From NCBI GenBank assembly GCA_903928895.1, contig CAIYSR010000073.1, positions 1 through 64,000 on the forward strand: a stretch of 64,000 nucleotides of DNA, given 5' to 3'. The notes beneath the pieces were generated by a model. That model saw only the letters and a program-made list of their open reading frames with translations. It was not told the DNA's origin and did no database searches. Below, one piece after another: positions 44,184 through 48,042 of this stretch (positions within the stretch are counted from its first letter, which is position 1; every line of letters begins with the position of its first letter). The position numbers were made by a program, and so were the translations under genes. The stretch is from an uncultured Rhodospirillales bacterium (GTDB lineage Bacteria; Pseudomonadota; Alphaproteobacteria; Acetobacterales; Acetobacteraceae).

Positions 44184-45833
44184 TCAGCCGGCTCCGATCG
44201 CAAGCTGCACCACCCGCAGCACCACCATTGCGCAGGCGACCAGAAGATAGAGCCACATAACTGCCATCCACACCCGCCGCGTGCCGCCAAGCTCGGCCGG
44301 CGCCAGCTGGTCCAACGGCGGCATGCGCCAGGCCGCCTTGCGCGCGCGCGACGGCCGCGGCGCAGCCGCGGCGGGACGGCGCAGCCCGCCCACGAGCTGC
44401 GCCAACACGCCGGCCAAGGTGACGATACCGCCGCCGCCTAGGATGACGAGCATCGCGGTTTCGGATAGCTCGGGGAACAGCACCGAGGCGGTGAGGATAA
44501 CGGAGAGCAGAACCAGGGTGCCGATCACCGCGGAGGTGAACACATTGAGCCACAGCCCGTTCACCCAGGGCCCCAGTACCGCGCGGTCGTTGCACAGCAG
44601 CAGCAGGAACACCGTGGCACTCGGCAGCAGTACGCCGGCCAGGGTTTGCACGCCCACGGTAATGAGGCCGAGCGGGGCGTCGGGGATCAGCACCAGGGCG
44701 GCAGCGGTGGCGATGATGCCGGCATAGATAAGATGGAACAGCTTGGCCTCGGCCGGCTTGCGGTGCAGCGAGTGCCGCACCGCGAGCATGTCGCCGACCG
44801 CATAGGCCGTCGACAACGAGACCGCCGCGGTGCCGATCATGCTGGCATCGAGCAGCGCGATGGAGAACAGCACCGAGGGCACCTGACCGACATATTTGGC
44901 AAGGCCAGCCGCGACGCCGCCGGCATCGCTGAACTGCCCGAACTCCGGCGTGCCGGCGAACGTGGCGGCGGCGAAGCCCATCATCGCCACCGCGCCGACG
45001 ATAACGACGACGATGCCGAGCCAGAGGTCGATCTTCTCGTAGGGGATGAAGCGCGGGGTGATGCGCTTGTCGATCACGTAGCTCTGCTGGAAGAACAACT
45101 GCCATGGCGCCACCGTGGTGCCGACGATGGCGATGATCAGCAGCATGATGTCGGACAGCTTGCCGTCCGGCATCTGCGGCACCAGCAGCCCGTGCGCCAC
45201 CTGTGCCAGCGGCGGATGGGCGGCGACAAGCACCGGGATCAGCAGCAGGCTGCCGAACACCAGCGCCATCGCGAAACGTTCGAAGCGGCGAAAATCACCG
45301 GTCGAGGCAGCGATGATGGTCAACACCGCGGCGACGCCGACGCCCCAGACCCGGGGAATGCCGAGCTGGTCGAGCGCCAGGCTGATGCCGATGAACTCGG
45401 TCACCACCGTCAGCCCGTTGAGGATTACCAGGTCGATCACGCTGAATGCGCCCCAGAAGCGGCCGAACCGCTCCAGGATCAGCCGCGCATGGCCCACCCC
45501 AGTCACCGCGCCGAGACGCAGCACCATCTCCTGGTTGACATAGAGCACGGGGACGAGAAGCAGCAGCGTCCACATCAGGCCGGTGCCGTAGTTCTGGCCG
45601 GCCTGGGTGTAGGTGGCGAAGGCGCCGGCGTCGTTGTCGCCGACCATGACGATGAGGCCGGGGCCGACGATAGCGAGCAGCGTGCGCAGCTTGTTGCGCC
45701 AGCCGCGACGGTTGCGCGCGTGGCCGGTGCCGCCCCGGCGGGCGACGGACCCGAAGGCGCCGTGGATGTCGCCGACATGGGCGGTGTCGAGCACGGCGGA
45801 CCGGATGGCAGTCTTGGGAGAGATGGCGTTCAT
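44184..45833 (-). CDS. NRAMP-family divalent-metal transporter, divergent (NRMT-like)
   Basis: This 549-residue membrane protein has 11-12 helices of the NRAMP/LeuT fold plus a 40-residue N-terminal and a long loop near residue 480. The TM1 metal site, normally DPGN, reads DAGA (in MVGDNDAGAFAT). The TM6 motif, normally ATVMPH, reads TTVAPWQLFFQQS. So the aspartate is kept but the methionine, asparagine and histidine are lost. This pattern is like the NRAMP-related magnesium transporters (NRMTs), which lack the methionine. The gene has a leader of over 400 bases with a manganese-riboswitch-like element and a leader ORF, so expression is metal-responsive. Confidence 0.88.
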   Translation of the reverse strand: MNAISPKTAIRSAVLDTAHVGDIHGAFGSVARRGGTGHARNRRGWRNKLRTLLAIVGPGLIVMVGDNDAGAFATYTQAGQNYGTGLMWTLLLLVPVLYVNQEMVLRLGAVTGVGHARLILERFGRFWGAFSVIDLVILNGLTVVTEFIGISLALDQLGIPRVWGVGVAAVLTIIAASTGDFRRFERFAMALVFGSLLLIPVLVAAHPPLAQVAHGLLVPQMPDGKLSDIMLLIIAIVGTTVAPWQLFFQQSYVIDKRITPRFIPYEKIDLWLGIVVVIVGAVAMMGFAAATFAGTPEFGQFSDAGGVAAGLAKYVGQVPSVLFSIALLDASMIGTAAVSLSTAYAVGDMLAVRHSLHRKPAEAKLFHLIYAGIIATAAALVLIPDAPLGLITVGVQTLAGVLLPSATVFLLLLCNDRAVLGPWVNGLWLNVFTSAVIGTLVLLSVILTASVLFPELSETAMLVILGGGGIVTLAGVLAQLVGGLRRPAAAAPRPSRARKAAWRMPPLDQLAPAELGGTRRVWMAVMWLYLLVACAMVVLRVVQLAIGAG

Positions 45834-45896
45834 CGTCTGATATCCTGCTGGTAACTCACGATTCCTGGCGTGAACGGCGCGCGCGGGTGCGCCGGA

Positions 45897-45995
45897 TCAG
45901 CTAGATCGCGGGCCGGCAGGGTCGAACGGCACGGGGCGATGCCGCAAAATGATGCGGCATCGCCGAGCAGTATAAATCGTATGACAGGCAGCCAT
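45897..45995 (-). CDS. Putative 32-residue leader peptide upstream of NRAMP-like gene
   Basis: A complete short ORF starts at ATG 45995 and stops at TGA 45897-45899. GAGGAGG lies seven bases upstream, a better ribosome-binding site than most genes here. The peptide reads MAACHTIYTARRCRIILRHR, then PVPFDPAGPRSS. It has two cysteines, several arginines and a proline-rich end like the MgtL leader, whose stalled translation regulates a magnesium transporter. A perfect 12-bp hairpin lies inside it. It ends 63 bases before the NRAMP-like start. It is too short to be sure it is translated. Confidence 0.55.
   Translation of the reverse strand: MAACHTIYTARRCRIILRHRPVPFDPAGPRSS
45935..45964 (-). promoter_or_regulatory. 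Perfect 12-bp hairpin within the leader ORF
   Basis: On the minus strand GGCGATGCCGCA (45964-45953) and TGCGGCATCGCC (45946-45935) pair completely around a 6-base loop. It lies in the middle of the 32-codon leader ORF, so ribosome position would decide whether it folds. There is no T-run after it, so it is more likely an attenuator or anti-anti-structure element than a stand-alone terminator. Confidence 0.7.
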
Positions 45996-46048
45996 CGGCG
46001 CCTCCTCGAACTCGAACCTGTTTGGTAAGGCCCGGGAGGCGCGTGGCG

Positions 46049-46080
46049 GTCCTGGGGGCTAGTGCAGTCCCCCCAGGGCC
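46049..46080 (-). promoter_or_regulatory. GC hairpin between riboswitch and leader ORF
   Basis: On the minus strand GGCCCTGGGGG (46080-46070) and CCCCCAGGACC (46058-46049) form a stem of about 10 bp (one G-U) around an 11-base loop. It lies between the riboswitch-like aptamer and the leader ORF and may be part of the expression platform. It has no downstream T-run. Confidence 0.55.
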
Positions 46081-46187
46081 GGCTGCGGATCCCGGGCAAC
46101 GGAGCAGCCCGGTCGGGGTGTCATGGTCGGCGCAATGCGCGGACGATGGCTCTCCGTGGGCTGGTTGCTAGATCGCGGTTCCATGAT

Positions 46188-46297
46188 GTCCCTGAAGGTG
46201 GTTGCGGGGGCGCCGGAGCGGCAACGTCGCGTCGCCGGGGCAGCGTCGGTTCACCGAACAGTGATGAGCCTTGCTCGCAGTTACTCCCCTCTTCCGG
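46188..46297 (-). ncRNA. Candidate yybP-ykoY (Mn2+) riboswitch aptamer
   Basis: The minus strand begins GAAGAGGGGAGTAAC, which contains the conserved yybP-ykoY opening GGGGAGUA(G/A)C. It continues with CTCATCAC, TGTTCGGTGAACCGAC and CCCCGGCGAC, comparable to the conserved CAUCA and CCGGC elements. It ends GCAACCACCTTC, comparable to the 3' GCAAGACCUU. GAAG (46294-46291) pairs with CTTC (46197-46194) and GG with CC to close P1. In known cases this RNA binds Mn2+ and switches on manganese-homeostasis genes. Here it precedes an NRAMP-like gene. Its 5' strand overlaps the end of trmO, whose TAA lies in GGGGAGTAAC. Confidence 0.7.
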
Positions 46298-46763
46298 CCC
46301 GATCAAGTCCTGTTGCGTGGGGGCTCAACCACCCCATGGTTGCCGCCGGTTCGCAGTCGGTACTGCGGAGATAGGGCTTGATGTCGAGCAGCGGGGTGCC
46401 GTCGAGGCAGTCCAGAAAGCGCACGCGCAGCACACCAGGGGCGGCAAACCCGTCGAAGGCGACGACGGACAGGCCGATCGGGTTGGGCCGCCGCGGCCCG
46501 CGGGTGGCGAACAGGCCTGCCGGTTCGCTGGCGAAGGGAGGGGTGAACCGCATCTCCGGCCGCGCAGCGGGGCCAAGCCAGTAGAGCAGGATCAGATGGC
46601 TGAAACCGTCCAGCCGGAGCAGCCCGTCGTGGAACTCGGGCTCGATCTGTGCCAGGCAGATTGGCGCCGGGTCAGGCTGGCGGCCGTTGCGCGGACATTC
46701 GCGCACGCTGCTCCATGGGGTCGAGAGGCGGCCGATCGGGCGCAGGCTCATGGGATCGGACAT
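46281..46763 (-). CDS. trmO: TrmO-type tRNA (t6A37) methyltransferase
   Basis: This 160-residue protein matches the TrmO/YaeB (UPF0066) family that methylates t6A37 in tRNA-Thr: LRPIGRLSTPWSSVRECPRNG, HDGLLRLDGFSHLILLYWL (in parts), TRGPRRPNPIGLSVVAF and LDIKPYLRSTD. It has only the catalytic beta-barrel domain, without the C-terminal domain of the E. coli protein (235 residues). The ATG at 46763 follows AAGGAG. Its last codons and TAA stop lie within the conserved 5' part of the riboswitch candidate for the next gene. Confidence 0.88.
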   Translation of the reverse strand: MSDPMSLRPIGRLSTPWSSVRECPRNGRQPDPAPICLAQIEPEFHDGLLRLDGFSHLILLYWLGPAARPEMRFTPPFASEPAGLFATRGPRRPNPIGLSVVAFDGFAAPGVLRVRFLDCLDGTPLLDIKPYLRSTDCEPAATMGWLSPHATGLDRAGRGE

Positions 46764-46875
46764 CTGCGGGCTCCTTGCTGCACGGTCGAGTGTGGCCCAT
46801 CCCGCCCGCCTTGACACCTGGCGCGGGCGGACAGCACGGTTGGGGCAAGCCCATTGGGGCATCAGGGAGCACGTC

Positions 46876-48042
46876 GTGTCCGCACCGACCACCGCTAAAC
46901 GCAAGCCGCCGCTCGACGGCATCCGCGTGATCGACCTCACCCAGGTCTATAACGGCCCCTATGCGACCTACATGATGGCCCGCAACGGCGCCGAGGTGAT
47001 CAAGATCGAACCGCCCGGCGGCGAGCATCTGCGCAAGCGGGCCGGCGGCTCGGCGCTGCCCTTTGCCATGCTCAACGGCAACAAGCGCAGCATGGAACTC
47101 GACCTCAAAACCCCCGAGGCGATCGAGGCCGTCCTGAAGCTGGCCGACAGCGCCGATGTCATCGTCGAGAACTTCACCCCCGGCGTGATGGCCCGGCTCG
47201 GCCTCGGCTACGAGGTGTTACAGGCGCGCAATCCGCGGCTGATCTATGCCTGCTCCTCCGGCTACGGCATCGACGGCCCCTACCGGGACTATCCGGCGAT
47301 GGACCTGTCGATCCAGGCGATGAGCGGGATCATGGGCGTGACTGGCTTCCCCGACGGCCCGCCGGTGAAATCGGGCTCGACCGCATGCGACTTCATCGCC
47401 GGCACCCATGTCTATGCCGGCGTGATGACGGCGTTGTTCGAGCGCGAGCGCTCCGGCCTCGGCCAGATGGTGGAGATCGCCATGCTGGAGGCGGCCTACT
47501 TCACCCTCACCTCCAATATCGGCGCCCTGTTCAGCGAAGGCGGCGGCCCGCCGGGGGGGCGGACCGGCAACCGCCACGGCGGGATGTCGATTTGTCCCTA
47601 CAACGTCTATCCCGCGGCCGACGGGTTCATCGCAATCCTGTGCAGCAACGACAAGCACTTCGTCTCCCTGATGAAGGCACTCGAGATGCCGGAGCTCGGC
47701 AATGATCCGCGTTATGCGCTCAACAAGAACCGGGTGGCGGCGATGGACAGCATCGATGCCCAGATCGCGGCGCGGACGGCGCAGTTCAGCAAGGCGGACC
47801 TGTTCGCGCGGATCATGCGCCACCACGTGCCCTCGGCCCCGGTGCGCGGGTTGCAGGAGGTGATCGACGATCCGCATTTACATGCGCGCGGGGCGCTGCG
47901 CTGGTTCGACCATCCCCAGCACGGTCGTCTGGTGCTGGCGGAGAGCCCGCTGCGGCTGCATGGCAATGAGCGGCCGGACTATACGCCGAGCGTGCCGATC
48001 GGGACCGACACGCAGGCGATCCTGGATAGTCTGATGGGATAG
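46876..48042 (+). CDS. CaiB/BaiF-family (family III) CoA transferase
   Basis: This 388-residue enzyme moves CoA between carboxylates. The N-terminal GIRVIDLTQVYNGPYATYMM and NGAEVIKIEPPGGEHLR bind the nucleotide. YPAMDLSIQAMSGIMGVTG carries the catalytic aspartate that forms the aspartyl-CoA intermediate. SDKHFVSL-like and VPSAPVRGLQEV segments follow. The GTG start follows GGGAG. The substrate cannot be named; neighbours (amidase, aminotransferase, amidohydrolase) suggest a small catabolic cluster. It is divergent from trmO. Confidence 0.88.
   Translation: MSAPTTAKRKPPLDGIRVIDLTQVYNGPYATYMMARNGAEVIKIEPPGGEHLRKRAGGSALPFAMLNGNKRSMELDLKTPEAIEAVLKLADSADVIVENFTPGVMARLGLGYEVLQARNPRLIYACSSGYGIDGPYRDYPAMDLSIQAMSGIMGVTGFPDGPPVKSGSTACDFIAGTHVYAGVMTALFERERSGLGQMVEIAMLEAAYFTLTSNIGALFSEGGGPPGGRTGNRHGGMSICPYNVYPAADGFIAILCSNDKHFVSLMKALEMPELGNDPRYALNKNRVAAMDSIDAQIAARTAQFSKADLFARIMRHHVPSAPVRGLQEVIDDPHLHARGALRWFDHPQHGRLVLAESPLRLHGNERPDYTPSVPIGTDTQAILDSLMG

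Follow-up and report, generated by a model that had tools for sequence, protein, structure and literature searches.

A conserved upstream ORF leader, probably a ribosome-controlled attenuator, precedes an NRMT-type transporter gene in an uncultured member of the Acetobacteraceae

The window analyzed here comprises 64,000 nucleotides of contig CAIYSR010000073.1 (assembly GCA_903928895.1) from an uncultured Rhodospirillales bacterium of the family Acetobacteraceae, and the features described below lie on its minus strand. A preliminary description, based on the letters of the sequence, had proposed an NRAMP-like gene in this region, and the gene is real: positions 44184-45833 encode a protein of 549 amino acids that matches PF01566 with 265 bits. 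The further proposal of an NRMT-like carrier also holds, as the protein is, judged by its sequence, an NRMT-type (SLC11/NRAMP) transporter. TM1 carries NDAG and TM6 carries APW, with TVAPWQLFFQQ in the window aligned to TIAPWMMFFNQ in EleNRMT, which is the best solved match (7qia, E=1.7e-49; next match 1e-23). Orthologues were drawn from genomes of the family, from relatives and from a set of named proteobacterial and actinobacterial genomes, and the APW site (Met replaced by Ala, His by Trp), known as the NRMT signature (PMC8806188), is present in 112/112 of them. In covariance-model searches, five actinobacterial orthologues of 62-66% identity have an M-box immediately before them, with scores of 112-126 bits (from Leifsonia, Arthrobacter, two Sinomonas and one actinobacterial MAG; L096:3601-3770, L107:3350-3526, L110:3536-3706, L114:3523-3693 and L125:3495-3668). 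M-box Mg2+ riboswitches before nrmT genes were described by Shin et al. in 2014 (PMC4072509), so the link between a metal-sensing RNA and an NRMT, which the preliminary description did not recognize as described, had already been reported. The NRMT signature, together with the M-boxes before orthologues, makes Mg2+ the likely substrate and signal of the window system; it should be noted that one NrmT tested behaved as a Mn2+ transporter (PMC4072509), which calls for caution regarding the substrate.

Upstream of the transporter gene lies a leader that could be aligned with those of relatives (alignment A2, 57 leaders). A probable sigma70-type promoter at 46279-46306 was recognized by eye in the window and in the congeners L002 and L003. 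It consists of a -35 element TTGATC (46306-46301), a 16-nt spacer and a -10 region GTAACT (46284-46279), and related leaders carry TTGA(C/T)C-N16-TATATC at the same place. Automatic best-score selection missed this site in L001 and L002, and we infer the promoter position in the window from the alignment with relatives. The gene for a TrmO-type tRNA methyltransferase (46281-46940, minus strand) ends over this promoter, and the same neighbor is found in L003. About 20 of the 57 promoters contain a TATACCC-N-GGGTATA palindrome of the CsoR/FrmR/RcnR type, often between the -35 and -10 elements. Divergent genes for repressors of the CsoR/FrmR/RcnR family are found in L006, L008, L036, L042, L044-L046, L051, L068, L090, L180-L188, L193 and L196. 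The presence of the palindrome and of a divergent FrmR/RcnR-like gene at many promoters therefore suggests a second input in those lineages, and hints at a transition metal or an aldehyde acting at the promoter, which counts against the reading proposed below.

The promoter region bears directly on an earlier interpretation of positions 46190-46297 as a yybP-ykoY Mn2+ riboswitch. The motif strings on which that interpretation was built are all on the minus strand in the expected order: GAAG (46294-46291), GGGGAGTAAC (46289-46280), CATCAC (46266-46261), CCCCGGC (46240-46234) and GCAACCACCTTC (46205-46194). The likeness to yybP-ykoY is limited to these few short motifs, and the window holds no conserved aptamer core. 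The RF00080 covariance model, proposed in the preliminary description as a check, gave no match at the gathering score in the whole window, none at E<=10 when 45800-46400 was searched with the filters relaxed, and none genome-wide, while the same search was positive in the control genomes of E. coli, B. subtilis and Caulobacter. The region folds like its dinucleotide shuffles (z = +0.35). The P1 and CAUCA/CCGGC positions, whose conservation was another proposed check, are not kept in relatives: CATCAC and the GAAG/CTTC pairing are missing in L002 and L003, the two closest orthologous leaders, and none of the other leaders examined has the conserved yybP-ykoY L1/L3 motifs and P1. The alignment of the upstream region accounts for two of the strings, since it places GGGGAGTAAC in the -10 region of the relatives and CCCCGGC in a variable GC-rich hairpin of the 5' UTR. 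We have rejected the yybP-ykoY assignment on these grounds and regard it as extremely improbable. A regulatory leader before the transporter gene is nevertheless present, as had been claimed, but it starts where the claimed element ends and has the build of an attenuator based on an upstream ORF (uORF), not of a yybP-ykoY RNA.

The conserved element is absent from Rfam and extends from 46193 to 45993. It contains a uORF of 41 codons together with two helices that exclude each other. The Shine-Dalgarno sequence of this uORF, AGGGA (46189-46193), occupies conserved columns 14-18 of A2 and is followed by uORF1 (46059-46184; 41 codons and a stop, MEPRSSNQPTESHRPRIAPTMTPRPGCSVARDPQPALGGLH), which is conserved in the 57 leaders with the consensus MNPRSSSQPTESHSRR and a looser part containing GW and AR. 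uORF1 measures 35-46 codons, and its frame is open throughout the 57 leaders, with frame 1 closed in 57/57 and frame 2 in 56/57; this pattern marks it as a conserved leader ORF that is predicted to be translated. Its peptide profile finds the copy in the window organism's own genome with E=3e-15. Peptide conservation is strongest in the first 16 codons, where the motif comprises P3, P9, E11, D/H13 and S14-R-R along with the low-usage codons CGA, TCT and AGT, and two codons, CGA at codon 4 and AGT at codon 14, are nearly fixed at all three positions. Proline, aspartate and glutamate make up 27% of codons 2-14 compared with 13% of the rest, which is below the content of mgtL, a leader in which proline and acidic residues make elongation dependent on Mg2+ (PMC11552253). 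Synonymous change in uORF1 is barely above that of frame 1 (0.386 vs 0.354), a result that counts against reading the leader as an attenuator. The weak synonymous enrichment is attributable to the overlap of RNA structure with coding sequence, and the peptide sequence of uORF1 may matter less than the RNA.

Helices were scored in A2 by the proportion of paired cells, by double-sided changes, and against 500 shuffles, a control that leaves the kinship among the leaders in place. The segment GCCCGGGA (46090-46097), which spans codons 30-32 of uORF1, pairs with UCCCGGGC (46037-46030) to form the ON helix. Across the 57 leaders, 90% of its cells are paired and seven of its eight pairs show double-sided changes, with a score reached in 0/500 shuffles and far above that of slid controls; in L005, for example, the helix reads GCTCGGGA/UCCCGAGC, and Dyella (L068), a gammaproteobacterium, has GCTCAGGG/UCCUGAGC. 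The downstream strand belongs to a switching arm, CCTCCCGGGC (46030-46039), whose CCTCC (46039-46035) can instead fold over GGAGG (46005-46001) in an OFF hairpin (46001-46039). This Shine-Dalgarno helix has 92% of its cells paired in the 57 leaders and, taken jointly with the apical helix, 81% of cells are paired with 37 double-sided cells and 0/500 shuffles reaching the score. An RNAalifold consensus that paired the Shine-Dalgarno sequence with GCC after the ATG was set aside, as the CCTCC/GGAGG helix is better supported. Because columns 194-196 and 200-201 are common to both structures, the ON and OFF helices cannot coexist, and the covariation thus describes a leader predicted to alternate between two mutually exclusive helices, one of which would sequester the downstream ribosome-binding site.

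In energy calculations, the whole leader is more stable than its shuffles (z = -3.7), and the OFF region (45995-46053) folds with -27.9 kcal/mol. When the 5' part of uORF1 is treated as occupied, the two states are balanced over the 57 leaders: the difference E(ON)-E(OFF) has a median of -0.5 kcal/mol and lies within 5 kcal in 39/57, and a nascent RNA ending before the Shine-Dalgarno sequence forms the ON helix in 51/57. In the window copy, OFF keeps an advantage of 5.9 kcal/mol even when part of uORF1 is taken as occupied; this counts against the attenuator reading, and the ON state in this copy would therefore need to be kinetic.

Two further structures lie inside uORF1. Helix B, CAGCCC (46163-46158) with GGGCTG (46110-46105), joins the Gln8-Pro9 codons with the Gly-Trp codons, and has 87% of cells paired and 26 double-sided changes, with 0/500 shuffles reaching its covariation score. 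A small hairpin at codons 14-20 (46125-46145) has 84% of cells paired, 18 double-sided changes and 0/500 shuffles, and is imperfect in the window (4/6 pairs). An all-pairs covariation scan with no preset structure ranked 113-199, 67-78, 45-102 and 47-100 near the top, and thereby recovered pairs of the ON helix, of the codon 14-20 hairpin and of helix B. Such covarying helices inside a coding region raise the question of whether they form a true aptamer that binds Mg2+, another cation or a metabolite, with binding choosing between ON and OFF and translation of uORF1 acting as a second layer. The codons nearly fixed at all positions likewise point to a constraint on the RNA beyond what a leader peptide would require, and for mgtA itself, sensing by RNA versus elongation on the uORF is still debated (PMC11552253). 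However, a ribosome translating an ORF that runs through the aptamer would tear the aptamer open, and the uniformly open frame with its conserved Shine-Dalgarno sequence, flanked by closed frames, indicates that ribosomes are expected there; in addition, peptide conservation peaks at the start of the ORF, as nascent-chain effects predict. We consider the aptamer an unlikely explanation and favor control by the translating ribosome.

The start codon gated by the OFF hairpin is usually that of a second ORF, uORF2, which in the window occupies 45897-45995 (32 codons and a stop, MAACHTIYTARRCRIILRHRPVPFDPAGPRSS). Most leaders encode a uORF2 of about 50-70 amino acids with the motif RPxLxxxWxxxxxGRLxCxW; in the genus of the window organism it is shorter and degenerate. 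No Pfam or NCBIfam family matched uORF2. Inside it, at 45930-45970 on the minus strand, GGCGATGCCGCA..TGCGGCATCGCC forms a strong, perfectly paired hairpin, which is not followed by a T-run. Six leaders (L004, L005, L039, L043, L192 and L197) have no uORF2, and in these it is the NRMT gene's own ATG that is gated. This arrangement is the clearest sign in the comparison that the hairpin serves the control of transporter synthesis.

In erm- and trp-type attenuators, the position of the ribosome on a leader ORF selects between a helix that frees and one that sequesters a downstream initiation site. The same ribosome-position logic would apply here, with a different leader and a different target. 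Transcription would start near 46270, and a ribosome would begin to translate uORF1. If it ran freely to the stop codon, it would cover codons 30-32, leaving the arm CCTCCCGGGC to fold over the GGAGG of the next start codon, which is that of uORF2 here and of the transporter in some relatives, and expression would be off. If instead it slowed down or fell off within the first 16 codons, GCCCGGGA would remain free to pair with UCCCGGGC, the ribosome-binding site would be open, and uORF2 and the transporter would be made. The signal that slows translation of uORF1 would most likely be low cytosolic Mg2+, as for enterobacterial mgtL. The effect on uORF2 would be passed on to the transporter either by translational coupling, which opens the transporter start, or by protection from Rho. 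Sequence comparison supports the architecture well, namely the uORF, the helices that exclude each other, a start codon under their control and a transporter of the NRMT type. The Mg2+ trigger and the stalling or abortion of ribosomes at the N-terminal motif of uORF1 are inferred. Taken as a whole, the reading of this mRNA leader as a translation attenuator that is governed by the ribosome and serves a magnesium transporter of the NRMT type, with low Mg2+ as the likeliest signal, is in our judgment somewhat more probable than the other explanations combined, and the leader would probably turn on a magnesium transporter under magnesium scarcity.

The distribution of the leader and the genes that follow it bear on the nature of this signal. 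The transporter is present in 43/397 genomes of the family, a patchy distribution that counts against the attenuator reading, and the peptide profile detects uORF1 in 55/299 family genomes. A class-wide search with the uORF1 peptide is weak given the very short query, and was replaced by R1, a covariance model built on the uORF1 region, which finds the leader in 39/299 genomes of the order and seldom outside it. The leader also occurs in single members of other families of Alphaproteobacteria, Dyella, Sphingobium, Rhizobium, Magnetospirillum and Telmatospirillum. All matches with good R1 scores outside the training set (L215, from another family, and L221-L224) have the hairpin and a downstream NRMT gene. 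Two others, L218 and L220, keep a hairpin and an altered uORF and have no NRMT within 4 kb. Matches at the level of the phylum scoring about 28 bits (L216 and L217), with neither a uORF1 of the usual length nor an NRMT, were taken as chance. The same leader stands before three NRMT subfamilies, which are 100-60%, 44% and 36% identical to the protein of the window and carry APW in every case checked, and the gene behind it is almost always an NRMT. A weak match in L219 (31.7 bits, about 350-890 on the reverse strand) precedes a gene of the MgtC family, and L188 has an MgtC gene behind its NRMT gene. Full leaders with uORF1, hairpin and uORF2 also occur without the transporter in L177-L179, which are three species of a single genus whose genomes measure 2.7 Mb, and one genus (L172 and L173) has a second copy ahead of the gene for a secreted CarboxypepD_reg-domain protein.

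An attenuator of the same build could also respond to something else, such as translation capacity, an amino acid or tRNA (through the Ser, Arg and Pro codons), an antibiotic, or a transition metal in concert with the CsoR/RcnR-type repressor. The conserved Ser-Arg-Arg with its rare codons, the divergent FrmR/RcnR-like genes and palindromes, the copy before the CarboxypepD_reg protein and the orphan copies without a transporter would all fit such a signal. Nonetheless, NRMT genes are almost invariably the downstream partner, their orthologues elsewhere carry an M-box that senses Mg2+, and the one weak copy mentioned above precedes MgtC. A different signal therefore appears to us improbable, at about the level of the aptamer, and low Mg2+ is retained as the likeliest input of the proposed attenuator.

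Several known systems resemble the window leader in part. For the mgtL-mgtA and corL-corA leaders of Salmonella and E. coli, a magnesium transporter is reported to be turned off when a short uORF is translated efficiently (PMC11552253). As in the window, there are two exclusive RNA folds; Pro and acidic residues stand near the start of the uORF, at a higher content in mgtL than in uORF1. The window leader is not homologous to these and differs in that its sequence and transporter class are unrelated, its Mg2+ response is predicted, gating takes place at a Shine-Dalgarno sequence and is not known to involve Rho termination, and a second uORF is often interposed. The M-box (RF00380) before nrmT genes shares the transporter family and presumably the Mg2+ signal with the window leader, whereas the latter contains a uORF and different helices, and neither the window nor 18 leader loci matched the RF00380 model. 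In the M. tuberculosis pe20 M-box, for which involvement of Rho has been reported, a translational platform gates a conserved small uORF before the operon, much like uORF2 here (PMC12810186); its sensor is the M-box aptamer, in contrast to the translated leader ORF proposed as the sensor in the window. No other family of Rfam release 15 was found in the leader across the window and the 18 leader loci. Weak plus-strand matches to Scr4115 and ncS035 in 45800-46400, far below gathering scores, were taken as chance matches of GC-rich sequence. Likewise, our literature search found no description of an NRAMP, alphaproteobacterial or uORF leader of this type, which is weak evidence as few subscription papers were covered. 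Neither Rfam release 15 nor the literature found contains the leader, and annotation pipelines therefore miss it. The leader with its sequence appears to be new, as does its connection to NRMT; attenuators of the leader-peptide kind are already known for magnesium transporters.

Orthologues in other proteobacterial groups carry different small ORFs. In Rhizobiales (L064, L076, L079, L083, L085, L094, L095, L098, L113 and L054), an unrelated short uORF (MGSSxSG...) precedes the NRMT gene, and after it comes a CTCACC/GGTGAG hairpin that may cover the ribosome-binding site of a small ORF similar to uORF2; the build is that of the window leader on a different sequence. Burkholderiales orthologues (L093, L099, L101, L115, L118, L121, L124 and L128) are preceded by a very short 'DSDSCPLCR' uORF of the form M(N/P)D(S/C)DS(C/Y)P(L/I)C(R/P). 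On their sequences, both types look like parallel solutions. We give just under an even chance to the broader proposal that a Mg2+-responsive attenuator replaces the M-box for NRMT in Proteobacteria, with ribosome-based control being general and achieved via different leader peptides.

If the attenuator reading is true, magnesium control of the mgtL kind would exist outside the enterobacteria, with an unrelated sequence, another transporter class and another step of control, the gated ribosome-binding site. The leader would also provide a compact system for studying how the nascent chain or the stability of the ribosome reads cellular Mg2+. NRMT genes would then be wired to Mg2+ in two ways: Gram-positives would use an aptamer, the M-box, and Proteobacteria the translating ribosome.
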